Below are positions 9,151 through 44,268 of a DNA stretch of 64,000 nt, one piece after another. The position numbers were made by a program, and so were the translations under genes. Under the pieces are notes generated by a model. That model saw only the letters and a program-made list of their open reading frames with translations. It was not told the DNA's origin and ran no database searches. Origin of the DNA: a bacterium (lineage in GTDB: Bacteria; UBP15; UBA6099); the NCBI GenBank assembly GCA_029564595.1, contig JAKQPS010000082.1, positions 62,001-126,000 of the forward strand. The letters run 5' to 3'. The number at the start of each line of letters is the position of its first letter. The first letter of the stretch is position 1.

Positions 9151-9273
9151 CGGGAATAACATAGTCGAAGCCGAAAAGGCAAACCCGTCGAAAGACGGCG
9201 ACGCAAAGCTACGGGGCTAAAGCCGGAAGAAGAGAAGGACAAGGTCAAGCCCGCCGAGCTGCCGAAGTTTCCG
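9151..9273 (+). promoter_or_regulatory. Class I cyclic-di-GMP riboswitch (GEMM-I) controlling the Tad pilus operon
   Basis: The leader before the Flp pilin gene contains the GEMM-I core in order: GGCAAACC at 9178-9185, stem CCGTC/GACGG (9185-9189 with 9194-9198) closed by a GAAA tetraloop at 9190-9193, then GACGCAAAGC at 9200-9209, GGGGCTAA at 9213-9220, and the 3' element GAGCTGCCGA at 9256-9265. CGGG/GCCCG pairing (9212-9217 with 9249-9253) forms the second helix. The base before CAAACC is G (9179), as in cyclic-di-GMP binders; the cyclic-GAMP variant has A there. The outer P1 helix is the weak point. A possible pairing is 9151-9157 with 9267-9273, which leaves a longer single strand than usual. 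Confidence 0.88.
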
Positions 9274-20194: not shown

Positions 20195-21802
20195 TCATTC
20201 TCCAAAAACCTGAGCCGTATAAAGCAAAAACTTGCAGTTGTCTCGTTTCCAGCCGTCGGGAGGCAGCCCGGCTTTCATCGCTAGATGAGAGAGCATTTCA
20301 TCTCGGTTCCAGCCTTGTTCGGGAGCGACCTGCGGAAGGAATGTGGAAGCGTTCCATCCGCATTCCAGAATCACGCCGTGCTTGCCTATCTCTATATCCT
20401 TATAAGAAGACGCCGGAGCGGGCTGAGACAAAACAGAGATTTCGATGTGGATTGAGTCAAGTTCCTCGGGGCGGACAGGCGGGAATCTCGGATCCCGCGT
20501 GGCGGAAACGATAACTTGAGAGGCGGCAAGTTTGAATATCGGCGTGTCAGGCTCAAAATGTCCCATACATCCGCGAAGCTGTTCGTTTTTATTCAGCGTG
20601 ACGAACATGCCGCGTTTGACCCGCAACGCAGGGTTGGCGTCTTCAGGCTCGTATCCTACTCCTTTGCGAATAGTGGATTCAAGGGATTTCCTTGTTATCG
20701 CTAACAGTTCATTTTGTGATTTTTCGTCAAGTTCGCTCGCATTATCCATTTCCGGCATGACGTCCTCCTTTGTCGTATTGGTTGCCGAGCCGGGGTTGCC
20801 GTCTGATTTCTTCGGAGAAGGAATGGCGGGGTTTTCGTTGAAAAGAGCAGCGGACATATATCCCACAACGCCTTGGCCGGTGGCTCCGAAGGTGTCCTGC
20901 GAAGTGGCGTATTTCAATACGGCGGCTTTGTGGGAGCCGAGTTTTCTTGAAGCTCTTATGACTGCTTGAGCCGCGCCGTGCCCGCACATACGACGCCCCG
21001 TGGGATCTTCTTTCATGATTTCCGCGATGCCTTTTTCGTCCATTTCTTGAACTTTTTCAAGAAGCTCGCGGTCAAGCCTTTTTGCTTCGTTCTGAGGCCA
21101 GAAGTGAGACATATCAGAGCTTGCCACCATAAGAGCGTTTCTGCCTTCAAGGGCCTTGGCAAGGGCGTCCGCTAAAATATCGATGTTCGCTTTGGACTGA
21201 TTGCCCATTATCACTGGGACTAAGGAAAACTCCCCAAGAGCCGCTTGGAGAAAAGGCAATTGATTGTCCACAGAGTGCTCGTCTTTGAAAAGCGTTGGAT
21301 TGTGGCGGATGACCCCTTTTCCGGCAGCGACCAATGCGGAAGTCGTTTCAGCGTCGATAGGAATGTCGCCAAGCGGAGTGCGAAACGCGCCGCTTTCAAA
21401 CACTGCGATTCCGGGATCGTACACACCATGAGAAAATCCTACCACTATGACAGTGTCGTATTCTTTGCCCGCAATAGCTTTGTAACCGTGAGCCGCGACA
21501 GGCCCCGAGTAAATGAAACCGGCATGAGGAGAGATGAGAGATACTATCCGGCCTTTGATTTCAATCGGAGACGCGTCGGCGAGCATTCTATCGACCATGT
21601 CTCTCAGTTCCGCAGGGTTTCCCGTGAACCAGCGTCCGGCGCTTGTGCATGTAAAAACCGGGCCGGGCGATTGCGCGGCGGCTGTTTTTTTTGAAGTCTC
21701 ATTTGACGTCGCTTTTTGGGGGTTCTCGGCTTTGGCGCATCCCGCGCACGAAACAAACACGAACAGCGCCGCTGCCAGAATAGAGTAGATTCTGCGCGTC
21801 AT
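20195..21802 (-). CDS. Lipoprotein fusion of MEMO and AMMECR1 domains (AmmeMemoRadiSam B and A)
   Basis: This 535-residue protein has a lipoprotein signal (FVFVSCAGCAKAE; lipobox AGC). A MEMO1-family domain follows (about residues 50-330): SPHAGFIYSGP, VGFSHGVYDPG, DEHSVDNQLPFLQ and SSDMSHFWPQN carry the conserved His/Asp pocket, and RMCGHGA has the conserved Cys. After a Pro/Ser/Asn linker, the AMMECR1 domain (about 360-535) shows LRGCMGHFEPD, SATRDPRFPPVRPEEL, IEISVLSQP and GVILECGWNASTFLPQVAPE. Both families are usually cytosolic and separate. ATG 21802 was chosen because it sits one base after the upstream stop (TGA-C-ATG), with GGGGAG eight bases before it. The biochemical function is unknown. 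Confidence 0.87.
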   Translation of the reverse strand: MTRRIYSILAAALFVFVSCAGCAKAENPQKATSNETSKKTAAAQSPGPVFTCTSAGRWFTGNPAELRDMVDRMLADASPIEIKGRIVSLISPHAGFIYSGPVAAHGYKAIAGKEYDTVIVVGFSHGVYDPGIAVFESGAFRTPLGDIPIDAETTSALVAAGKGVIRHNPTLFKDEHSVDNQLPFLQAALGEFSLVPVIMGNQSKANIDILADALAKALEGRNALMVASSDMSHFWPQNEAKRLDRELLEKVQEMDEKGIAEIMKEDPTGRRMCGHGAAQAVIRASRKLGSHKAAVLKYATSQDTFGATGQGVVGYMSAALFNENPAIPSPKKSDGNPGSATNTTKEDVMPEMDNASELDEKSQNELLAITRKSLESTIRKGVGYEPEDANPALRVKRGMFVTLNKNEQLRGCMGHFEPDTPIFKLAASQVIVSATRDPRFPPVRPEELDSIHIEISVLSQPAPASSYKDIEIGKHGVILECGWNASTFLPQVAPEQGWNRDEMLSHLAMKAGLPPDGWKRDNCKFLLYTAQVFGE

Positions 21803-21803
21803 G

Positions 21804-22289
21804 TCAGCAACTCCCCGACGCTCCGCTTTCCGCTCTCTGTTTAATCCCATTAAGCAGCGCCTCGTTGTTTTCTCTAAAGATATTATCAATTATTTTTACC
21901 GCAAAAGGATGAAGCCTCAAAAGCGGGTGGTCCATCTCATAGTCCATGTCGATAGTCATTTCAGTGGAGTCTCCTACGGGCTTGAACGACCAAACGCCGC
22001 ACATTTGTTTGAAGTGGCCCCGGCCTTCGCGGGCGCATTGAAAGCGGCAACATTTGCAGTTGTCGTCCCAGCGGTCTTCTTGGATCCATGTCATAGAGCG
22101 CTTTTTTCGCACAGGCCGCGCTTCGGCGGTCCATTCGGCTTTTATATAATTGCCGTCTTCGGATGTTTCAAGAATCTTGATATTTTTTAGATTCGGAAAT
22201 AATTCGGGAAAAAGATGAGGCTGCCTTCCGAGGGCGTAAAGGGTTTCAAGTGGAGCTGATGACACTACCCGCGCCCTGATTTTGCCCAT
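21804..22289 (-). CDS. SRPBCC-fold (polyketide cyclase/RatA-like) protein
   Basis: A 161-residue START/SRPBCC-type helix-grip protein. The opening KIRARVVSSAPLETLYALGR and the PELFPNLKNIKILETSEDGN block fit the family, and STEMTIDMDYEMDHPLLRL forms the C-terminal sheet before the long helix (FAVKIIDNIFRENNEALLNG). The central insert has Cys-Arg-Phe-Gln-Cys and another Cys (NCKCCRFQC), four or five Cys close together, which is unusual and could bind metal. Such proteins bind lipids or hydrophobic ligands. A strong GAGGAGAG site precedes the ATG. It is translationally coupled to the MEMO-AMMECR1 lipoprotein. Confidence 0.7.
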   Translation of the reverse strand: MGKIRARVVSSAPLETLYALGRQPHLFPELFPNLKNIKILETSEDGNYIKAEWTAEARPVRKKRSMTWIQEDRWDDNCKCCRFQCAREGRGHFKQMCGVWSFKPVGDSTEMTIDMDYEMDHPLLRLHPFAVKIIDNIFRENNEALLNGIKQRAESGASGSC

Positions 22290-24814: not shown

Positions 24815-27800
24815 TTATTTGGTAAGAGTGAGAACGCAATTGGACAAAGCGCCTGCGTTTAACATGTAGCCGCGCCACGGAGATATAGACCCGCCGGTGT
24901 TAGGCTCAATCTTCACATATCCCGATCCGGCGACATAGTAATATACTGGAGGAAGAGAGATGGGAGAGCCGCCGCAGGAAATTGAAGCGTTCGCGTTTAT
25001 CCAAAGCGTCGATTGAGTGAATGGAGAAGCTATCATGTTCCATCCGGGCGTAAGCGGAGCGGAGCGGGATGAGCCGGAATACGTTGTTCCGCCGGACGTT
25101 GATATTGTTCCGAGTTCAGTTGCTGAATGAACCCAGTAAGCGGAGCCGATGTCCATGTAACCGCCGGAAGTGTGAAACCAAACGCCTGTGGAGCTTACTC
25201 TTGAAATTTGCGTGGAAGCGCCGGGCGCGGTAGCGATAATGGCGAACGCCATATTTTGTTTTGAGGCTCCGACAAGGTTCCAGCCTTCTCTTATGAAAAG
25301 TCCGGGAGGAGTCAGCGCGGCAGAAGCGCGCGCGCCGCTGGTTAGTCCCGCAGAGTAATTAAGCGCCCCATCGAAAGCGAACGCGGTGTAGTAATAGACC
25401 GGCCCTTCGGAAACTGAAGAATCTGTGTATGATTCTGCTGTTCCTTCATAAATTAAATCGCCGTCGAGGATATTCAGAGGGTAGTTGCCTTGTTTTCGGA
25501 GAATCTTCACCCCTTCAAAATCGGCGTCGCCCGGATTGGTCCAAGAGAGTGCAATCAAAGAATTTCCGGGTTGTGCCGAGAGGGAAGACACATCGTCAGG
25601 AGGTTCCACATCCGGGGTCTGGCCATTAGAGGAAACGACAGTGGACTCAAGTCCCGCGACGTCCACTGCTTTGACCGAGAAATAGTACATTTGCCCAAGA
25701 GAAAGAGTCAGACCGGATTTTGTCACTGATGTTGAAGCTCCGGCGGATGTCCATGAGACCACATCGGATGCTCCGGGGGATCTGCCGATTGCGTATTTGT
25801 ATGAAGCGATGCCCGACGCTGAATCTGCTGATTGTCCCCAGTTCGCGGAAAGCTGAGTCAGGGAGCCGCAGAAAGTGATGTCGGTCGCCAAGCCGTCATA
25901 TACGAAAGGAACAGGGGAGGGCGGGGTAAGATCGACCGTAAAACCGTCAGAAGACGCGACCGAAGACATCAGGCCGGAATTATTCTCCGCCTTGACCGAG
26001 AAATAGTATTTCTGTCCTTCTTGTAGAGATAGGCCGGTGAGAGTGGCTGATAGCGACAGAGCGTTGCTTGTCCATGCGGAAATATCATCATCGCCCGGCG
26101 AAGAGCCTACGGCCCTCCAGTATCTCACAACACCGGATTGAGGGTCTGACGAAGCGCTCCACCGAGCGGACAGGGATGTGGAAACGGAAGACCAGTCGAT
26201 ATCGTCTCCGCTCGCGCCGTCGGTCACTGTCGCTGGCGCCGCCGGAGGAGTCGCGTCGATTCTAATGCCGTCCGAGACTGTCGCGGATGATTCCAAACCC
26301 CAACCGTTAACGGCTTTAACGGAGAAATAATAAATGGCTCCGTCAGTCAGGGATAGGTCTTCCAGCAAAACGGAAACGTCAAGTCCGTTGTCAGTCCATC
26401 CGACGATATTTGTTGCTCCGGCGGAAGTTCCCACTGCGAATTTGTAGCTTGCTATTCCGCTTTCCGGGTCTGAGGATTCGCCCCAATTTGCCGATAATGT
26501 GGAGATCGACTGACTCCAATCCATATCCGCGCCTTCGCCGTCGTAAACGTAAGGAACGGCGGAGGGGGGAGTGAAATCCTCCGTATAAAGCGTCTGGCCG
26601 TTCGAGCATGTCATTGTGGAAGCAAGCCCGGCGTTATTCACTGCGCGCGCGCAGAAATAATAGGTGTGGCTGATAATGAGTGGAAGAGAATATCGGGTGA
26701 CGCTTGTGGCAGAGCCGATGGAGACCCACGGCACGATGTTCGCGGAGCCCGGAGAGGTTCCGACTGAATAAGTATATCTATTGAATCCGGACTCCGGGTC
26801 GGAACCTGTAGCCCAGTTTGCGGAGATTTGAGTCGGATCCGTAAAGATATCAATATCCGCGCCCAGCCCGTCATAGACATATTCGAGAGGCTCCGGCGGC
26901 GTGGTGTCCACAAAGTAATCCAAACGGTAATTTTGCGAGTCGGAGTGAGAGTTTTCGACAGAGTCCACGCAAGCGAAAAACAAGGAGAGAGGTCCCGGCG
27001 CGGATGTTGATGCCGTGCAGGTGTGAGTCGTGGTCAAAGCTGCCGAGCACTGGTTTTCAGGCGGCATGGCGTTGTATGACAGGTCGCTAAAAAACCACCG
27101 GCAGATAGATGTCTCATTGGTAGTGAAAGTGATAGGCGGAGCAGCCGACGTAAGGTAGCCGCCATCTGGAGGGGAGAAGGAGGAGGCAACCGGAGGCGTC
27201 AAGTCGACAGTGTATGACAGGAGCGTGTTGGATGCCACCGTGTCATTGTTGCCGAGAGCGTCTTCGCAAGCGATGTAAATCTCCGACGGGCCTTCCGCAA
27301 GCCCGAAGACTGAACACTCATGAGACACATCGTCGCCGCTCGCGCAACTGTGAATCATGTTGAGATATGAGAGATCGGTCGCCGCCCACCGGCATTCCGC
27401 GCTTTCATCCGTTGTAAAAGCGATGAGTGGAGCGATGGTCCCAATCTTCGCGCCGTCTGAAGGGACGAAACCGTATTTTTCGGGTGGCATGACATCGACG
27501 GTAATGCCGTCTGAACTTGTCGTTGTGGATAGCAATCCGGCTCTATTTTCGGTTCTAATTGACAAATAATAAGTCTGCGCGTGAGAAAGAGACAATCCTG
27601 AAAGGGAGACCGCGGTGTCGTTTCCCAGATAAGACCAAGAGACGATGTCGTCGTAACCGGGAGAAGTTCCGACCGCGCGCCAGTAACCTGACACTCCGCT
27701 TTCCGGGTCCGAAGCGGCGTTCCAGTTGGCGGATAGCGAGGTTAAAGAAGTAGTCCATTCAATATCTGCGCCCAACCCGTCGTTAACTGCGGCAACAGGG

Positions 27801-30800
27801 TTCGGCGGCGTAGTGTCCACAACAATGCCGTCAGAACTTGACGCAGCAGACAACAGCCCGGCCCCGTTTTCCGCTTTTATTGAAAAATAATATGTTTGGC
27901 CGTGAGATAGGGACAACCCAGACACGACGCTCGATATGCCGGAACCATTCGCTGCCCATGCGGATATATCGTCTGAGCCGGGAGATGTTCCGACAGCTCG
28001 CCGATAGGCGGTTATGCCAGTGTGCGGATCTGACGATGCAGTCCAGTTTGCTGACATAGATGTTGTTGAACTGGTGTAATCAATGTCGCTGGAAAGACCG
28101 TCATTTACGTCAGTCGGGGCTGATGGCGGCGATGCGTCTATTCTGACTCCGTCCGATGTCGCGGCGGTCGAAAGCAGTCCGACTCCGTTTACGGCTTTAA
28201 CTGAGAAATAATACATCTGTCCGTCGGTCAATGAGAGACTGGAAACTGTTGCGGATGTGGAATTCCCATTGTCGGTCCATGGCACGATGTTGTCGTTGCC
28301 TGAGGTGGTTCCAACAGCGAAACGGTAGCTGGAAACTCCCGAATGCGCGTCCGACGAAGCGCTCCAGTTTGCTGAAAGTTCGTCGGAGTCGGTTGAATAA
28401 TCGATGTCCGCGCCCGCGCCGTCGTAAACGTATGAAACAGTCGCCGGGGGAGATGAGTCCACAGTCTGGCCGTTTGAAGATGTCGGAGTGGAAAACAGCC
28501 CGGCGCCGTTCTCTGCTTGAACCGAAAAATAATATGTTTGGCCGTCGGCAAGAACGAGACTGGAAACAGTCGCCGAAGTCGAATCTCCATTGTCTGTCCA
28601 TGCGACGACGTCGGAGGCTCCGGGCGCGGTTCCTATGGCAAACCAGTAGCCGAGGATGCCTGAATGCGGGTCGGAAGAAGTTGTCCAGTTGGCAACAAGA
28701 GACGATGACGAAGTAGTCCAGTCGATATCCACGCCGGGGCCGTCATTAACGGTGGCGACGTCGGTTGGCGAGGATGTGTCCACGGTTTGGCCGTCTGAAT
28801 TCGTGGCGGTCGAGAGAAGCCCGGCCCCGTTTTCGGCTCTTACGGTGAAATAATACGTTTGGCCTTCAACGAGAACAAGGCCTGAATGAGTGACTGTGAG
28901 CGATGCGCCGTTATCCGTCCAGCCGGCGATATCCGTGTCGCCGGGGGCGGAGCCTATGGCATACCAATATCGAGATATTCCGCTTTCGGAGTCCGACGAT
29001 GCGGTCCAGTTCGCAGTCAACTCAGTAGTCGAACCGGCGAATTCCATGTCCGAATCGGGGCCGTCATTGACAGGTCCCGGCGCCGATGGCGCTGATGTGT
29101 CTATTGTTATCCCGTCGGAAACTTCTGTTGAGAAGAGACCCACGCCATTTTCCGCTCTGACGGAGACATAATACGTTTGACCGGATGAAAGCGATAAGCC
29201 TGTTTGTGTCATGGACGCGCTCAAAGCGTTGTCGGTCCAATCGACGATATCCGTCCCTCCGGGGGTTGCGCCTATGGCGAAAAGATATCTTGCCAGACCG
29301 GAGTGAAGGTCAGTAGCTGCGCTCCAGTTGGCGGACAATTCATCGGTGGAACTTGAATAGTCGATGTCCGCGCCTGAGCCGTCGTTGACGGGGGCGACGC
29401 TTGTGGGCGGGGAGGAGTCCACAGTTTGACCGTCGGAAGATGTAATGCCGGACAGCAACCCGGCTCCGTTCTCCGCTCTCGCGGAAAAGAAATAGGTCTG
29501 GCCGTCAGTCAAAGTTAGTCCGGAGCGCGTTACGGAAGTGTCCGTCCCGGTGTCAGTCCATGTCGAAATCTCGGTTCCGCCGGGCGTTGTTCCGATTGCG
29601 TGCCAATAACGGGCAATTCCGCTTTCAGGGTCCGATGACTCCGTCCAGTTGGCCTTGAGAGCTGAGGCGGAAGTTGTCCAGTCAATGTCCGCGCCTTCAC
29701 CGTCGTAAACATCGGCGATGTCGTCCGGGGGGGACAAATCGGGCTGAATTACCGCGGAGTCGCCGATTTCAGGCGTCCTGACTGAAGCGATATATATGGT
29801 TTCTCCTATCGCGGCTCCGAGTTGATTGAGGGACTGATCCGATGAAGTGTCGTGCAGCGTGGCGGTCCCTCTGTAAATACCTGAACCGGCAGCGGTTTCG
29901 GTCAGCGTTACGTATATCCCTGATGGAGAAGTGGAACTGCTGCGCGCGTGTATGACGGTCTGGTTGATAATCGCCGGGTCTCCGTTGTTCCCGACGAGTT
30001 GTATGAACAATGTCGCGCCCGGCCCGGTATCGCCGCCGAGGTCGGCCAAATACGACGAGTCCGACTTCAGCTTTAACGAAGAAGGCGACATCAGTCTGTC
30101 AACTCCCGCAGTCAGCTTGTATTGAGTGTTTATCGGGCATGCGGGCTCGCAGTTTGTCCCTGTATCATTAGCATTGCCGGAAAAATAGTTGTGTGTCGCG
30201 TTTGTGATATCTCCCGCCGTTTGCGAATAGAGGGCATAAGCGTCGCTGTCGATGAAGTTGTTCTCCTTGAGCGTGGCGTTTTTTCCAGCAGGCTCGAAGA
30301 AAAACCCGACGATTTCAATGCCTTCGAAACTGTTGGCGACAGCGGTGATATTGGATTTCGTGTAAATGCCGCCGTAAGAGTCGGCAAAAAGATTATTGCG
30401 TATAAGAGCTTCGCTGTAAGAATCAGTGAATATCCCGAAAGAACTGGTTTCTCTGAACTCGCAGAATTCAACAACGGGGCTTTTTCCGGTTATCATCAGC
30501 CCGTATTTTGCGTAAGAGAAATTAATATAGGCGATTTCGAGGACATCAAGAGCCGTGCCGAATATAAGGAGCGCTCCCCAGTCTCCCTGCGCAGGCGATT
30601 CAGCAAGAGATGTGAATACTATTGGATCGGCTTCGGTTCCGCTGGCGATTATTCCGCCCCCGTTGGAGACGATGATGTCGGCCAAATCCGACCACCCGTA
30701 ATCAGCATCGGCGACATGAGGAAAGAATTTGACGATGACTCCGGGCTCGATTGTGAGAGTGGCTCCGTCGGTTACGAAAATGTCTGTCGATGGACAATAC

Positions 30801-32635
30801 GGGTTGTTGGCAGGCGACCAGACGGTGTCGTGTTCGATGTCATTCACAAGAATTATGCCGTTTCCTGACACCGTCGCAGGCGAAGCCTCAGGATATAGCG
30901 GGTCTCCCGCTCCGCTTAAGACTCCTGTAATAGCGACCTCATAAGTCACACATTCGCTTAGCGCGGAAGTTGTTAGTCTTATCGTCATTCCGTCCGGCAT
31001 GGCAGTCGCCGCCGAAGGCTCTCCGATTCCGTTATTGACGTTGTAATTTGCGGGGTCGGCTGCTGTTAGGCTTGCGCTTATGTCGAGGTTGTACAGGATA
31101 TCAATTGAAGTCGGCCCCGACACAGTGGCTGAAACGACAGTGAAAAACGCGTCCGAAAAAGATACGTCAAGAGTCATCGAAGCGCCGGGAACGGAAATGT
31201 TATCGATAGTTATTCCTGTAGCAATCCCGTTGTATCTGTCGGAATTCGGCGTCGAGGCGGGCGACAACTCATCTCCGTCTGTGTAGTAGTCGCCGGCGTC
31301 CGCCGTTCCTCCTGCTTCAATCTCTTCCAACCCGTCGGCTTCCATCAGTCTCAGAAGCTTCCTGTCCGTGTATGAGTTGTCATAAAGAAAATTCGAGCCT
31401 TGTTCGTTTAATGTCGAATCCACATGCCATATCGTTAGGCCTTCTCCCGGGAAGTTTGAATCGTTTCCGTCCTGAGCGCGATTCTGGACGATAAAATATT
31501 CATAATAATCCTTCCCTAACGACGCTTCAGGCATGACGATAGCCGCGTCGGATGAATCGTGCGAGGCGGCAAGGGATATGCTGTTTGTTCCGGAAAAATA
31601 GACGTCGGGAGTTATCCAACCGAGCAGAAACTTGCTGAAGGCGTTGTGGTCGCCTTGGCTTGAGTCCATCATGTCGAGGCCGCCTACGCCGCCGTCGGGG
31701 CCTACGCTGTCGTCATAGTCGTAATAGTCCGGCAAGCCGAGCGCGTGTCCGGTTTCGTGAATCAAGGTTTTAGGGTTCAGTTTTGCCGGCGGATCTGGAA
31801 GCTCATAATAAGTCTCCCAGTTCCACGAAAAAACGTCCAGCATTTTTCCGTCAATCGTATAAGCATAGTCGGTAAAGGTCGATTTATAAGACCACCAGAA
31901 TCCGCCCCAGCCGCTATTCGGCCCGGCCCAGAGAAAAATTATATAATCAATCTTCCCGTCTCCATCGTTGTCGTATTGAGAAAAGTCATGGCCGAGCGAG
32001 TCGAAATAGTCCAACGCGTCTTTGATGAGTTCTCTGCGGTCAGCATTTGTCTCCGGGATGGAAGCGCGGGGAACTCCCGCGTCATACCATCCGAGGACAT
32101 TGCCGGTTATGGTTAATTGTCCGTATGAAGAACGGTCATAATAATTCGCGAGGCTCTCGTAAGGAAAAAAATCGCCTATGAGAACATCGCCGTCGCCGAA
32201 AACCACATCGTCAATTTCCGCAGGCGAGTATGTCGCCGGATAGTCGCTGAATTCCAATCCTATGACGGGAATCTTAACGACGCCTGTCGTAGGCAATCCT
32301 TTCCAAGCAGGAGGCGGAGCCATCGCTGATTTCTCAACAATCCCCTCGGCAGCCATCAGTTGATCCATTTTGTACATAGCGCGCTTTAAAAGTTCAGGGG
32401 ATATCTTATGATTTGAGATTTCTTTCATGAATTCGACGCGCGTTGAAAGAGAGCCGTCATTCTTGTAATCTGCGAGTTCGCCGGGAGCAGGGGGAGCGGA
32501 GCAAAACGCCGATTCAGAAAATGCTAACAGTATCGCGACGAAAGCCGCTTTGATAATCTTCAGGTTTAGTTTTGTTCTAATTTTTATCAACTCAATTAAT
32601 GATAATACAAAACATATATATATCCATTGTCTCAA
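24815..32635 (-). CDS. Giant secreted M6-family metalloprotease with beta-helix and repeat domains
   Basis: A 2606-residue secreted protein. After a signal-like region (AAFVAILLAFSESAFC) comes an M6 (immune-inhibitor-A-like) protease domain, about residues 100-500, with zinc motif HETGH at 293-297 (LIHETGHALGLPDYYD) and the downstream Met-turn region (GGLDMMDSSQGDHN). Residues about 600-830 look like a right-handed parallel beta-helix (repeated short strands, NNLFADSYGG type). Then come eleven ~107-residue repeats (about 970-2350), interrupted after the seventh by two Cys-containing Ig-like modules, then one standard FN3 domain and a ~160-residue C-terminal domain (REGWNLVGASKQ). The start is uncertain: TTG 32635 is the longest, TTG 32590 is possible, and neither has a good ribosome site. 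Confidence 0.82.
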   Translation of the reverse strand: MRQWIYICFVLSLIELIKIRTKLNLKIIKAAFVAILLAFSESAFCSAPPAPGELADYKNDGSLSTRVEFMKEISNHKISPELLKRAMYKMDQLMAAEGIVEKSAMAPPPAWKGLPTTGVVKIPVIGLEFSDYPATYSPAEIDDVVFGDGDVLIGDFFPYESLANYYDRSSYGQLTITGNVLGWYDAGVPRASIPETNADRRELIKDALDYFDSLGHDFSQYDNDGDGKIDYIIFLWAGPNSGWGGFWWSYKSTFTDYAYTIDGKMLDVFSWNWETYYELPDPPAKLNPKTLIHETGHALGLPDYYDYDDSVGPDGGVGGLDMMDSSQGDHNAFSKFLLGWITPDVYFSGTNSISLAASHDSSDAAIVMPEASLGKDYYEYFIVQNRAQDGNDSNFPGEGLTIWHVDSTLNEQGSNFLYDNSYTDRKLLRLMEADGLEEIEAGGTADAGDYYTDGDELSPASTPNSDRYNGIATGITIDNISVPGASMTLDVSFSDAFFTVVSATVSGPTSIDILYNLDISASLTAADPANYNVNNGIGEPSAATAMPDGMTIRLTTSALSECVTYEVAITGVLSGAGDPLYPEASPATVSGNGIILVNDIEHDTVWSPANNPYCPSTDIFVTDGATLTIEPGVIVKFFPHVADADYGWSDLADIIVSNGGGIIASGTEADPIVFTSLAESPAQGDWGALLIFGTALDVLEIAYINFSYAKYGLMITGKSPVVEFCEFRETSSFGIFTDSYSEALIRNNLFADSYGGIYTKSNITAVANSFEGIEIVGFFFEPAGKNATLKENNFIDSDAYALYSQTAGDITNATHNYFSGNANDTGTNCEPACPINTQYKLTAGVDRLMSPSSLKLKSDSSYLADLGGDTGPGATLFIQLVGNNGDPAIINQTVIHARSSSTSPSGIYVTLTETAAGSGIYRGTATLHDTSSDQSLNQLGAAIGETIYIASVRTPEIGDSAVIQPDLSPPDDIADVYDGEGADIDWTTSASALKANWTESSDPESGIARYWHAIGTTPGGTEISTWTDTGTDTSVTRSGLTLTDGQTYFFSARAENGAGLLSGITSSDGQTVDSSPPTSVAPVNDGSGADIDYSSSTDELSANWSAATDLHSGLARYLFAIGATPGGTDIVDWTDNALSASMTQTGLSLSSGQTYYVSVRAENGVGLFSTEVSDGITIDTSAPSAPGPVNDGPDSDMEFAGSTTELTANWTASSDSESGISRYWYAIGSAPGDTDIAGWTDNGASLTVTHSGLVLVEGQTYYFTVRAENGAGLLSTATNSDGQTVDTSSPTDVATVNDGPGVDIDWTTSSSSLVANWTTSSDPHSGILGYWFAIGTAPGASDVVAWTDNGDSTSATVSSLVLADGQTYYFSVQAENGAGLFSTPTSSNGQTVDSSPPATVSYVYDGAGADIDYSTDSDELSANWSASSDAHSGVSSYRFAVGTTSGNDNIVPWTDNGNSTSATVSSLSLTDGQMYYFSVKAVNGVGLLSTAATSDGVRIDASPPSAPTDVNDGLSSDIDYTSSTTSMSANWTASSDPHTGITAYRRAVGTSPGSDDISAWAANGSGISSVVSGLSLSHGQTYYFSIKAENGAGLLSAASSSDGIVVDTTPPNPVAAVNDGLGADIEWTTSLTSLSANWNAASDPESGVSGYWRAVGTSPGYDDIVSWSYLGNDTAVSLSGLSLSHAQTYYLSIRTENRAGLLSTTTSSDGITVDVMPPEKYGFVPSDGAKIGTIAPLIAFTTDESAECRWAATDLSYLNMIHSCASGDDVSHECSVFGLAEGPSEIYIACEDALGNNDTVASNTLLSYTVDLTPPVASSFSPPDGGYLTSAAPPITFTTNETSICRWFFSDLSYNAMPPENQCSAALTTTHTCTASTSAPGPLSLFFACVDSVENSHSDSQNYRLDYFVDTTPPEPLEYVYDGLGADIDIFTDPTQISANWATGSDPESGFNRYTYSVGTSPGSANIVPWVSIGSATSVTRYSLPLIISHTYYFCARAVNNAGLASTMTCSNGQTLYTEDFTPPSAVPYVYDGEGADMDWSQSISTLSANWGESSDPESGIASYKFAVGTSAGATNIVGWTDNGLDVSVLLEDLSLTDGAIYYFSVKAVNGWGLESSATVSDGIRIDATPPAAPATVTDGASGDDIDWSSVSTSLSARWSASSDPQSGVVRYWRAVGSSPGDDDISAWTSNALSLSATLTGLSLQEGQKYYFSVKAENNSGLMSSVASSDGFTVDLTPPSPVPFVYDGLATDITFCGSLTQLSANWGQSADSASGIASYKYAIGRSPGASDVVSWTSAGASTSVTKSGLTLSLGQMYYFSVKAVDVAGLESTVVSSNGQTPDVEPPDDVSSLSAQPGNSLIALSWTNPGDADFEGVKILRKQGNYPLNILDGDLIYEGTAESYTDSSVSEGPVYYYTAFAFDGALNYSAGLTSGARASAALTPPGLFIREGWNLVGASKQNMAFAIIATAPGASTQISRVSSTGVWFHTSGGYMDIGSAYWVHSATELGTISTSGGTTYSGSSRSAPLTPGWNMIASPFTQSTLWINANASISCGGSPISLPPVYYYVAGSGYVKIEPNTGGSISPWRGYMLNAGALSNCVLTLTK
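25590..29730 (-). repeat. Eleven ~107-residue (about 320-base) protein-domain repeats within the M6 protease
   Basis: Each unit carries the same landmarks: (Y/N)DGxGxDIDW at the start, SANW, SSDPESG, a (W/F)AIGTxPG piece, WTDNG, GQTYYFSVxAENGxGL, and a closing SSDGxTVDxxPP. Seven copies run from about 27500 to 29730. Two different Ig-like modules, each with Cys pairs, occupy about 26900-27500, and four more copies run from about 25590 to 26900. The DNA copies have diverged, so this is a coding repeat, not a CRISPR or satellite array. It probably forms a long stalk. Confidence 0.85.
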
Positions 32636-37897: not shown

Positions 37898-38755
37898 CTA
37901 GTATACGATACCGGCGTAACCCACGAAATCGACAGGCTCGCCGTAAGGCCTTACATCGTGGCTGGTGGTGTATTCAAGCAGAACTCCACGCCGCGCTCCG
38001 ATCTTTTCGGCAAAAGCGACAAGCGCAGAAATTGCTCCCGCTCCGCACGTGTTATGTCTGTCCCTCGCTTCTGAGACAATCGCCTCCGCGTTCATTCCGA
38101 CAGCCAGTTCAATCACACGTTTGTCGTTAACGTTTCGCACCCATTCCAACGCTTGCCGTCCTGTCCCTTTAGGCGCGAAACCGAATCTAGGCCCGTAATG
38201 GCTTAAATCGGCGCTGCCGATGGCTACGACGGAATCGTCATTGCGGGCGACATCCGCCACCGCCGCGCCGAGCGCGAATGCGTTTTCATGCGCGGGAACC
38301 AGTATCGGCGCGATACGCGCTTCCGGAAAAAGCCTTTTGATAAATGGGACCTGCACTTCGATTGAATGCTCGCCGTCGTGCGCCGAGGCGTTTTCTTTAA
38401 GTCCGTCCACTTGTTCCAGAAGACGAGACGAAAGAGCGGAGTCGATTTCTATGTCGCCGAAGGGCGTTTCCCAGAATCCTTCCGCCATCAGGGCAGGGGG
38501 GCCGAAATAACCGTGAGAAGCGCCGAATAGGATGAATGTTTTGGGATTTACATGTTTTTTTATTGCAGCGAACACCTTGCCCGCTGTCGGGCCGGAGTAA
38601 TCCCAGCCTGCGTGTGGAACTATTCCTGCACGGAAAACAACGTCTTTAACATCAATATCTGATACCGCGCAGTAATCTATCTTCTCCGCGCATTCTTCAT
38701 GGCCATAAGGATAAAAAAGACCTCTGACGACGCTCCCGCGCCGGTTAAGCGACAT
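37898..38755 (-). CDS. Second MEMO-family protein (AmmeMemoRadiSam system protein B), cytosolic
   Basis: This 285-residue stand-alone MEMO protein carries the family motifs: IVPHAGWDYSGPTAGKV, LFGASHGYFGPP, GEHSIEVQVPFIKRLF, IGSADLSHYGPRFG and NTCGAGAISAL. The metal-pocket His residues and the conserved Cys are all present. It has no signal peptide, unlike the lipoprotein fusion at 20195-21802, so the genome has one exported and one cytosolic MEMO. No radical SAM partner or stand-alone AMMECR1 gene is in the window. ATG 38755 was chosen because AGGAGG lies eight bases upstream. Confidence 0.87.
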   Translation of the reverse strand: MSLNRRGSVVRGLFYPYGHEECAEKIDYCAVSDIDVKDVVFRAGIVPHAGWDYSGPTAGKVFAAIKKHVNPKTFILFGASHGYFGPPALMAEGFWETPFGDIEIDSALSSRLLEQVDGLKENASAHDGEHSIEVQVPFIKRLFPEARIAPILVPAHENAFALGAAVADVARNDDSVVAIGSADLSHYGPRFGFAPKGTGRQALEWVRNVNDKRVIELAVGMNAEAIVSEARDRHNTCGAGAISALVAFAEKIGARRGVLLEYTTSHDVRPYGEPVDFVGYAGIVY

Positions 38756-38860
38756 TGCTCGAACCTCCTCTTGAGCCACTATCACGCTGAACTATTATAT
38801 ACATATTATTCTCATGTGTCATATCGCCCCAGTCGCTTCATTGTGCTAATATTCTCAGAC

Positions 38861-41085: not shown

Positions 41086-42759
41086 ATGGAAAGATATAAA
41101 AGAGAGTTGGCAAGGCTGCTAAAAGCGCGTTTCCCCTATATTCTTATACCCACGCCGGAGGAGCAGCGCGCTCTGGACATGATTTACGATGTGGCGGAAA
41201 ACGAGGAACTGGTCAGGACGCCTCGCGTCGTATATAAGTGGACTGCGACGCGCGGAATGGTCAAGGATGACCGGCCCGCCGACAAGGGCGACACCAAACA
41301 GCCTCTCCGCGCTCTTGAATTCATTGAAAACAACAAAGAAGCCGCTCTCTTCGTGTTGCTGGATTTCCATGTATATTTCGGCGGTTGCGGCAGAGCTTCC
41401 GACCATCAGATCGTAAGAAAACTAAGAGACATTGTCTTCAATCTCAAGCAGAATCCGAATCCTCAGAACGTCGTCTTGATTTCTCCTGTGTCCGAACTGC
41501 CTCTGGAGCTTCAGAAAGACGTGACGATAATGGATTTCGACCTTCCGTCAAAGGAAGAGCTTCTCGAACTGCTTCGGGATATGATTGCGGCAAATAGACA
41601 GACGGGAAGAATAGAAGTCGAGCTTGTCGCGGAGGACGAGGAACGCCTAGTGAACGCCGCCCTCGGACTTACCATGCAGGAGGCGGAAAACGCCTACGCG
41701 CGAGCTATGGTTGACGACGGACGTCTTGACGCGGACGATGTCGAGACCGTGTTGCAGGAGAAAAAACAGATAATTCTCAAGAGCCAGATTCTGGAATACA
41801 TCACCACCGACGTCACGATGAAAGATGTCGGCGGGCTGGAGAACCTTAAACGCTGGCTTGAAAAACGCGACAGGTCTTGGCTTGAGGAGGCCCGCAAGTA
41901 TTGTCTTCCTTCCCCCAAAGGAATACTCATAACAGGCGTGCCCGGATGCGGAAAAAGTCTGACCGCAAAAGCGGTCTCCGCCGCGTGGCAACTCCCAATT
42001 CTTCGCCTCGATGTGGGAAAGATATTCAGCGGACTTGTGGGAAGCAGCGAGGAAAACATTCGCCGCGCTCTGAAAACCGCAGAAGCGGTCGCTCCTTCCA
42101 TCCTCTGGATCGACGAGATTGAAAAAGGATTCGGCGGTTACACCTCTTCGGGAGACAGCGGGACGACTTCCAGAGTGTTCGCCACTTTTCTGACTTGGAT
42201 GCAGGAAAAAACCAAGCCCGTATTCGTCGTGGCCACCGCGAACAACATTCACATGCTTCCGCCCGAATTTATGCGCAAAGGTCGTTTCGATGAAATATTC
42301 TTTGTGGACCTGCCCACGAAAAGCGAACGCAAAGCCATTCTCGAAGTCCATCTCAGAAAAAGACTGAAACACAAGGAAATTCTTACAGGATTCAAGCTGG
42401 ACGCTCAGTTGATTGAAAAGATGGCCGATGAGACCGAGGGTTTCTCCGGAGCCGAAATCGAGCAGGCTGTCATCTCCGGTCTGTTTGAGGCTTTTGCCGA
42501 AAACAGAAGTCTTTCTTTCGACGACATTTTAAGGGCGGCTCGCAATACCGTTCCGTTGTCCGTGACGCAGGCAGAAGAGATACTAGCAATAAGGCAGTGG
42601 GCGAATGTCCGCGCGGTAGCCGCCACGCCGGCAGACGAGAGGGTCGAATATTCCAGCCCGGAACCCGGAGAGGAACCGCCGGGAGACACCGCCGGAGATT
42701 CGGACAAAACAAAAAAATCGCTGTTTTCAACTCGCGGCGGCAGGACAATTGACTTTTAA
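41086..42759 (+). CDS. Ycf46-like AAA ATPase
   Basis: This 557-residue protein has an N-terminal domain typical of Ycf46-type ATPases (about 1-235; [45 protein letters not shown]). A classical AAA module follows, with Walker A GVPGCGKS at 284-291, Walker [12 protein letters not shown] (341-351) and sensor/arginine-finger region [16 protein letters not shown] ~60-residue acidic Pro/Glu tail closes it. Ycf46 proteins have no firmly established biochemical role; a cyanobacterial one is linked to inorganic carbon use and photosynthesis. Here it is the first gene of a compact cassette with DUF1257- and DUF2997-like genes. Confidence 0.85.
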
Positions 42760-42807
42760 CAATCGCGGCGCATTGACCGCAGTTTATTGCGTTTTGGAGG
42801 CGGCATT

Positions 42808-43350
42808 ATGAGCACAGGAGTAGAAATCATACCTTTCTTCATAGTCATGTCTCTTTTTGCGGCGGCGACGGGCAAGACTATGGTCAACGGCATGGACCAC
42901 AGCGGAATTTGGAAATGGGATATGAATAAGCCTAAGAATAGAATAGGCGCAAAAACAGAACAATCAGTTCAACCAGAGATGAATAAGGCAAACAACAAGA
43001 CTTCCATCGACACCATTATGAATGACGAGGGCCTTTTACTGGCGGCTCTTGAAGACCTCGGACTCGACTTTATCAACGATGGCGGCAGCATAAAAATTTC
43101 AATCAATAACGTTGATGTCGCTTTTGCAAAGGACATGTCGGGAGCTTACTCCGCTGACTTCGAAGGCGGAGACGCAACGGCGGTGGCATCGCTGGTGGAG
43201 AATGTTTCCGAATTGTACAAACAGAAAGTCCAGCAAAAGGTTTACGACAATGTGATGTCGCGCGCTTCTGAAAACGGTCTTTCGCTCGAAAGCGAAAGAG
43301 TCGCCGCTGACAATTCAATAACATTGACTTTCGTTGTCAGGAGGGATTGA
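42808..43350 (+). CDS. DUF1257/Ycf35-like protein with N-terminal membrane-like segment
   Basis: This 180-residue protein has a hydrophobic start (VEIIPFFIVMSLFAAATG), then a linker, then a region that fits DUF1257 (Ycf35). It opens LLAALEDLGLDFINDG and ends LYKQKVQQKVYDNVMSRASE...ADNSITLTFVVRRD, as Ycf35 proteins do. The membrane-like N terminus is not usual for the family and may tether it. ATG 42808 follows GGAGG by seven bases; an upstream in-frame start at 42787 lacks a site. It begins 48 bases after the AAA ATPase gene. Function is unknown, and the family call comes from sequence pattern and context only. Confidence 0.65.
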   Translation: MSTGVEIIPFFIVMSLFAAATGKTMVNGMDHSGIWKWDMNKPKNRIGAKTEQSVQPEMNKANNKTSIDTIMNDEGLLLAALEDLGLDFINDGGSIKISINNVDVAFAKDMSGAYSADFEGGDATAVASLVENVSELYKQKVQQKVYDNVMSRASENGLSLESERVAADNSITLTFVVRRD

Positions 43351-43352
43351 CG

Positions 43353-43562
43353 ATGGAGGAGAAAATCACGATAAAAATTATGCCGGACGGAAGGGTGCTC
43401 GCTGAAACCGACGGCGTAAACGGCCCGAAATGCGTCGACTATATGAAACTTATAGAAGACATCGTTGAAGGCAAAATCGTCAAGGAATGGCGAAAACCCG
43501 AATTCGACGCCATCGATCAAGCCGTTTTGAACAACGCTCAGAACCAGAGGATTAAGGAATAG
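43353..43562 (+). CDS. DUF2997-like small protein
   Basis: This 69-residue protein matches the DUF2997 pattern. A beta strand (KITIKIMPDGRVLAETDG) precedes a conserved Lys-Cys (GPKCVDYMKLIEDIVEG), then comes a charged helical end. DUF2997 genes are commonly neighbours of DUF1257 genes, which supports the call. ATG 43353 was chosen over TTG 43347, which overlaps the previous stop, because AGGAGGG sits seven bases upstream. It lies 2 bases after the DUF1257-like gene and 4 bases before the zinc-ribbon gene, so the four genes form one tight cassette. Function is unknown. Confidence 0.7.
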   Translation: MEEKITIKIMPDGRVLAETDGVNGPKCVDYMKLIEDIVEGKIVKEWRKPEFDAIDQAVLNNAQNQRIKE

Positions 43563-43566
43563 AAGC

Positions 43567-44268
43567 ATGAAGTGTCCGATTTGCGAAGCCAACACAAAAC
43601 TGACCGACAGGTTTTGCCCCGCCTGCGGGGCATTTCTCCGAGGCAAGCGCTCCGGTTGCGATGAATCGAAAGATTTGAGGGTGGATATCAATAACGATTC
43701 GCTTGAACGAATTGAGAGGTTGCCCGGCATTTCACGGGAAAGAGCGGTCGCTTTAGTCAGAGAAAGAATGAACAGATCGGGCTTTATGAATCTTTCCGAA
43801 GTTATGTCATTTCTGAATCTTGATTCAAATGAGAAAATCGAATTTGGAAAAAGCGCCGTATGCCTGCCTGTCGGTGTCGAGATACCGAGCGAATGCGAGA
43901 AGACAGCCGCTCCTTCTCAAGCTGATGAATGGTCTGAGATGACTAAAAGGGAAGAGGCGAGAAAAAAGTCTTCTAAGACATCGCGTAAAGAAGAACGTCC
44001 AACTCCTGTTTCCGCGCGCAAAAAAGTTGATATTAACAGCGCGTCGGAGTCCGAAATCGCGGCTCTTCCCGCGCTTAACGCCATTATAGCGAAAAACATT
44101 GTGTCTGAAAGAGAAGCGCGCGGCGGTTTCTTGTCAATCGACGAACTGGCGCAAGCTGTCGGGCTGAAACAATTTATGATCGAATTGATATCTCCGATGG
44201 TAGAGTTCAAACCTATGGTTTCCAACAAGTCGGGAAGAAAGCTTAAAGGCAGAGTGGTTGATTATTAA
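43567..44268 (+). CDS. Zinc-ribbon protein with two helix-hairpin-helix (ComEA-like) domains
   Basis: This 233-residue protein has an N-terminal zinc ribbon (Cys3, Cys6, Cys17, Cys20; MKCPICEANTKLTDRFCPAC). A first HhH domain follows (about 36-90; VDINNDSLERIERLPGISRE), then a basic, probably disordered linker (about 108-150), and a second HhH domain (about 152-215; VDINSASESEIAALPALNAI). Both HhH units open with the VDIN(S/N)AS-type motif of ComEA-like proteins, which bind DNA or, in secretion relatives, protein. There is no signal peptide, so it acts in the cytoplasm. The joining of a zinc ribbon and two HhH units is unusual. It closes the Ycf46 cassette. Confidence 0.75.
   Translation: MKCPICEANTKLTDRFCPACGAFLRGKRSGCDESKDLRVDINNDSLERIERLPGISRERAVALVRERMNRSGFMNLSEVMSFLNLDSNEKIEFGKSAVCLPVGVEIPSECEKTAAPSQADEWSEMTKREEARKKSSKTSRKEERPTPVSARKKVDINSASESEIAALPALNAIIAKNIVSEREARGGFLSIDELAQAVGLKQFMIELISPMVEFKPMVSNKSGRKLKGRVVDY

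Follow-up and report, generated by a model that had tools for sequence, protein, structure and literature searches.

A p97-like ATPase cassette from a widespread, apparently undescribed bacterial system in which the ATPase and its variable partners end in a common C-terminal tail

Four adjacent genes in the window (the whole 64-kb stretch of DNA analysed here) represent one instance of a widespread, five-part bacterial system that is apparently undescribed in the open-access literature. The system combines a p97-like ATPase, a DUF1257 protein, a DUF2997 protein, one or more variable partners that end like the ATPase in a common C-terminal tail and, in most cases, a radical-SAM protein of the NrdG/PFL-activase type. 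We propose that the tail is a docking code recognised by a common reader, and that whatever the partners gathered in this way hold is remodelled; we put the probability of this reading at about one half. The sequences themselves show the tail code and the make-up of five parts. The four open reading frames are present as a previous sequence-only reading had described them, tightly spaced with gaps of 48, 2 and 4 bases; that reading overlooked two features, the common tail and the radical-SAM component. The features of the locus are the following:

41086-42759, + strand: Ycf46-type AAA+ ATPase, 557 aa, with a PF00004 match
42733-42756, + strand: C-terminal tail of the ATPase, RGGRTIDF, of the type found in 47 of 51 HhH-cassette ATPases
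42808-43350, + strand: DUF1257 (Ycf35-like) protein, 180 aa from the ATG, with a short hydrophobic N terminus
43353-43562, + strand: DUF2997 protein, 69 aa, with a PF11211 match
43567-44268, + strand: zinc-ribbon/HhH partner protein, 233 aa, with a zinc ribbon, two ComEA-like HhH units and the tail
43567-43632, + strand: zinc ribbon of the partner, CPIC...CPAC (Zn_ribbon_3/DZR, E 0.002-0.003, under the curated cut-off)
44017-44196, + strand: second HhH unit of the partner, residues 151-210, the best HHH_3 stretch
44245-44265, + strand: C-terminal tail of the partner, KGRVVDY, an ATPase-type tail found in 71 of 74 HhH partners

Scanning contigs with the ATPase, we recovered 80 loci (best identity, 61%), and in about 50 of these the ORF maps show the ATPase gene accompanied by those for DUF1257, DUF2997 and the HhH protein. 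These cassette loci belong to Bacillota, Actinomycetota, Bacteroidota, Fusobacteriota, Armatimonadota, Melainabacteria and a betaproteobacterium. Such a spread over many phyla bears out the earlier proposal of a conserved, apparently undescribed AAA system. That an HhH gene might never lie beside ycf46 in other genomes, an outcome named as fatal to that proposal, was checked in the same loci, where it stands together with the genes for Ycf46, DUF1257 and DUF2997. Contrary to the emphasis of that reading on chloroplasts and cyanobacteria, the set does not belong mainly to these: ATPase homologues up to 61% identical are found with the same partners in Bacillota, Actinomycetota, Bacteroidota and other groups. 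A quick ML tree joined the cassette ATPases, including the one from the source genome, in one group of 59 rows spanning the cassette phyla (SH-aLRT 99), with the source ATPase on a long end branch. Within the source phylum, six of the seven genomes gave some ATPase match. The only other ATPase of the same kind lies in a congener (G006), with 99% identity over 394 residues before being cut by the contig end; a short contig of another congener encodes a 35% relative, and all other matches are stretches of approximately 180-250 residues of other AAA proteins. Among these seven genomes, DUF2997 was found in the source genome only.

On Paenarthrobacter and Rhodococcus plasmids the genes of the set are annotated one after another, the DUF1257-like one as hypothetical. 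Cyanobacteria and red-algal plastids have the same three protein families (Ycf46, Ycf35 or DUF1257, and DUF2997), but the cyanobacterial plasmid homologues that we read come without the strict tail, an annotated HhH partner or a linked radical-SAM gene. Knowledge of these families is mostly plastid and cyanobacterial, and the open-access papers that we read assign them no function: a review of Synechocystis ferredoxins (PMC4284462) lists a DUF2997-ycf35-fed7 gene cluster, and passages of a red-algal plastid paper name no function for ycf35 or ycf46 (PMC5940233). We found no description of the system in that literature, where DUF2997, DUF1257 or ycf46 never appeared together with radical SAM. 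On a Pseudanabaena plasmid (L115:1577-7521), GrpE and Hsp70-family genes lie beside those for DUF1257, DUF2997 and the ATPase.

The ATPase matches PF00004 (AAA) in Pfam with an E-value of 2.5e-30, and its model (mean pLDDT 86) matches the p97/Cdc48 fold over 540-580 columns. It is composed of a degenerate first AAA domain (approximately residues 1-235) and an active-type second one (approximately residues 240-510). In the second domain, Walker A (G284-S291), Walker B (D343-E344), N386, R397 and R400 are kept in the 59 aligned homologues; having both Walker motifs, sensor 1 and the arginine finger throughout, this domain qualifies as AAA+. The first domain occupies its position in the fold with no recognisable P-loop, so the protein does not qualify as a p97 with two active tiers. 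Our best model is a two-tier p97-like ring, its first tier without a P-loop, which would dock the tail-bearing partners by way of a common reader. It resembles p97/VCP and Cdc48 in the two-tier AAA architecture and the catalytic residues of the second domain, but differs from them in that first tier and in having no p97-type N domain, and the cassette partners are unrelated to the Ufd1-Npl4 pair of p97/Cdc48.

The partner protein gave an HHH_3 match in two stretches (E 5e-20, 71.7 bits against a cut-off of 27) and a match of 7e-4 to the solved structure of ComEA. Its zinc ribbon scored under the cut-off (E 0.002, 17.9 bits against 27), with the four cysteines (CPIC...CPAC) present. A zinc-ribbon/HhH protein had been put forward as the companion of Ycf46: the HhH part recurs in the 50 or so loci, whereas the zinc ribbon is peculiar to the source genome, no other HhH row of the fetched loci having a pair of CxxC motifs within the first 120 residues. 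The source-genome partner has no predicted transmembrane segment. A simple hydropathy count gave at least one such segment in 66 of the 75 HhH rows, among which the source-genome partner is counted twice (L001 and L002). We read this partner as a variant on a common core. Tail-bearing partners of other builds include TM-Mrr, TM-only, TPR-HhH, GYF-HhH and tandem HhH proteins, and one locus (L037:2311-7353) carries seven tandem HhH-type genes, all tail-ended, upstream of a single ATPase. HHH_3 units are common to ComEA and the partner; unlike ComEA, the partner has no predicted transmembrane segment here, other membrane segments elsewhere, and a tail at its end. HhH domains may bind protein instead of DNA, and DNA contact by the HhH partners is an expectation from the family.

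The tail common to the ATPase and the HhH partner has the consensus R-x-[ILV]-[DE]-[hydrophobic]-COOH, represented here by RGGRTIDF and KGRVVDY, and reads R-G-G-R-T-[IL]-D-F position by position in the ATPase and [GE]-R-x-[VIL]-D-[LFIYV] in the partner. In HhH-type loci, 47 of the 51 ATPases and 71 of the 74 HhH proteins carry it, whereas among 2218 other ORFs of 100 aa or more it is found in 8, all of them in loci fetched for an ATPase of the same family. Those of the eight that were read include three Mrr-type membrane proteins (one by Pfam, two by eye) and three membrane proteins without a recognised HhH. The tail was absent from DUF1257 (0/94 rows), DUF2997 (0/58) and the radical-SAM protein (0/50). 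One could argue, from the patchy occurrence of the system and the uncharacterised state of every single family, that these are co-located but functionally separate genes whose tails are similar by accident; this we find hardly credible, as it is contradicted by the contrast in tail frequency, by the co-occurrence described below and by the conservation of the gene sets across phyla.

The ATPase tail sits behind a variable linker of 20-35 aa and is disordered in the AlphaFold monomer model (residues 527-557), as expected for a short linear motif. In Paenibacillus polymyxa M1, divergent tails are found together on the ATPase and two membrane-like neighbours (YRRISH, SRVIHF and KRVIRL). Two observations count against our proposal: this type of tail turns up away from DUF2997 and DUF1257, on a Treponema plasmid (GVRKLEM) and in a Mycobacterium phage (VRVLDL), and ATPases accompanied by DUF2997 on cyanobacterial plasmids and in Rhizobium phages have no tail. 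The Treponema plasmid (L114:5366-9590) carries a radical-SAM gene and the tailed ATPase directly upstream of an annotated phage baseplate assembly protein V. In a Rhizobium phage with ATPase, DUF1257 and DUF2997 (L126:4947-8269), the intervening gene ends in RRAVKL, and the corresponding gene of a related plasmid (L124) ends in RRRALDL.

We also searched ten genomes, including the source genome and G006, with a degenerate nucleotide pattern encoding G-R-x-[hydrophobic]-D-[FY]-stop, outside which tails ending in Leu, Ile or Val fall. The pattern gave 33 matches, against 17 for its reversed version. The match at L142 is a cassette ATPase, and one in the source genome (C86:13766) was disregarded because it has AGC (Ser) as its second codon. 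None of the eight extra-cassette matches that we traced ends a plausible gene (frames of 3-32 codons, or TGG replacing the stop). A role as a genome-wide substrate tag is unsupported by these eight matches of the Phe/Tyr-ending pattern. There is an indication that the tail may be private to the cassette.

A short C-terminal motif docking an AAA ATPase to its partner is known from proteasomal ATPases, namely the HbYX motif. Motif and tail are alike in being short C-terminal motifs of an AAA ATPase, docking being the function of HbYX; unlike HbYX, the tail has a different sequence and is common to partner proteins, and there is no proteasome gene in the cassette. In our proposal, the tail would be a docking code for a single receptor belonging to the constant core, namely the ATPase ring, DUF1257 or DUF2997; the radical-SAM protein is a further candidate for the reader. 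The ATPase and the variable partners would assemble on one platform by means of the tail, and ATP hydrolysis would remodel whatever the partner holds. The HhH partners and the occasional tailed membrane Mrr-type nucleases might perhaps bring the machine to DNA, and the radical-SAM protein could conceivably mature a core component. In its boldest form, which we hold tentatively and at slightly less than even odds, the cassette would be a new class of AAA machine in which a private C-terminal tail code assembles variable, mostly membrane-bound partners and a radical-SAM enzyme helps to install or read the code, making a self-contained combination of tag, reader and motor. The tail ties Ycf46, DUF1257 and DUF2997 to definite partner proteins in Bacillus-, Clostridium- and Arthrobacter-group hosts, and its five to eight residues offer a simple experimental handle.

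Beside most cassettes there is a gene of approximately 200 aa for a radical-SAM protein closest to NrdG and PFL-activase. With TIGR02491 (NrdG) it scored 101-125 bits, below the equivalog cut-off of 126.1 in all six proteins scanned. It is like NrdG and the pyruvate formate-lyase activating enzyme, its best solved relative, in the CxxxCxxC core, but is cassette-linked, and no glycyl-radical enzyme was seen among the cassette genes. We surveyed co-occurrence in 300 genomes of one order (Bacillales-type), drawn around a Sutcliffiella genome, and found the ATPase (at least 48% identity), DUF2997 and the radical-SAM protein in an identical set of 14. Fisher tests that included every ATPase and radical-SAM match and ignored kinship gave 1e-21 to 1e-23. 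One further genome had a weak, interrupted radical-SAM match, and two others had a lone ATPase homologue of 41-42% identity. Thirteen of the 14 ATPases (at least 61%) are tailed, while the remaining one (48%) and both lone homologues are not. This near-exact co-occurrence makes a post-translational modification directly testable.

In the source genome (G000, 97% complete) we did not find the radical-SAM protein, with both tails intact. In G006 its gene lies unlinked on another contig, between a xerC-like gene and a 2-oxoacid-oxidoreductase-like operon; at the matching spot the sequence of the source genome departs to a thyX-like gene (all names by eye), and a DNA search of this genome found neither the radical-SAM gene nor the xerC-like neighbour. 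Either an assembly gap or a real loss could explain this.

The target of PFL-activase and NrdG is modified in a short segment with a glycine, close to its C terminus. The tail could be the substrate motif of the related radical-SAM protein, which would modify the tails of both ATPase and partner. That the enzyme shares its 14 of 300 genomes with the ATPase and DUF2997 would fit, as would its unlinked presence in two tailed genomes without a local copy and the loss or degradation of the tail in two RGGR-clade ATPases (L054 and L055) from genomes without a close copy of the enzyme. We nevertheless regard this as unlikely: the enzyme was not found in the source genome despite its two intact tails, nor in two Omnitrophota genomes whose ATPases end in RKLEL/RKLEF, and it also accompanies tail-less ATPases (G253 and L086). 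Moreover, the Gly at position -6 of the partner tail is unconserved (41 G and 26 E of 74), which makes glycyl-radical chemistry on the tail unlikely. Across ATPase rows, tail presence is significantly associated with DUF2997 and with the radical-SAM gene, an association that is confounded and in which some DUF1257 calls are spurious frames inside the ATPase; since the tail correlates with both, the two are not separated.

An HMM search, the check suggested by the sequence-only reading, gave a divided answer. DUF2997 was confirmed well over the Pfam cut-off (PF11211, E 1e-10, 41.7 bits against 24.1), while the DUF1257/Ycf35-like protein stayed under it (PF06868, E 0.075, 13.7 bits against a curated 22.2). 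Aligning 23 cassette relatives of the latter with nine DUF1257 proteins from phages, plasmids, Omnitrophota and an archaeon in hhalign recovered the relationship (probability 97.7%, E 2.2e-12, 105 columns), and because of this profile-profile match the family assignment stands, as a distant one. The membrane-like N terminus ascribed to this protein is present as a short hydrophobic stretch, modelled at low confidence; it has an MS-x4-LIP-type start with Ser2 invariant and Pro9 nearly invariant among relatives. The core, approximately residues 61-180, is confident (pLDDT around 95), and a fold search with it gave no solved structure below E 0.001.

In DUF2997, G24 and C27 of an internal G-x-x-C are invariant in 26 diverse members, from phages to archaea. 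The suggestion of a ubiquitin- or Pup-like modifier is unsupported: the C termini are freely variable with no conserved Gly-Gly end, on which ground we rejected a conjugated modifier, and the invariant part is the internal motif. That motif might instead be where the radical-SAM protein matures DUF2997, or the target might be another core protein, with the tail only holding the parts together. Such a role would agree with the invariance of both residues and with the co-occurrence of DUF2997 and the enzyme in 14 of 14 genomes of one order, but cyanobacterial and phage DUF2997 proteins keep the G and the C without a linked radical-SAM gene, and we consider it improbable.

Similarly improbable, in our opinion, is a conflict (anti-phage or anti-plasmid) system with the HhH or nuclease partners as variable effectors. 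Its patchy distribution (14 of 300 genomes), the copies on plasmids, the variable and multiplied partners and the occasional tailed membrane Mrr-type nucleases speak for it. PADLOC, on the other hand, returned nothing beyond AAA similarity, chiefly to IetA; this concerned the ATPase only, with no match for the other three proteins, and the IetA and IetS pair of IetAS was not found. Besides, phages themselves carry related ATPases with DUF1257 and DUF2997.

Elsewhere in the same 64 kb, we observed a stand-alone Memo protein (37898-38785, - strand) and a Memo-AMMECR1 fusion (20195-21889, - strand), together with a c-di-GMP-I riboswitch (9168-9266, + strand, 69 bits). The region 24815-32635 (- strand) encodes a protein of 2606 aa that matches fn3, beta-helix and M6-peptidase models and probably is a large protein of the cell surface.
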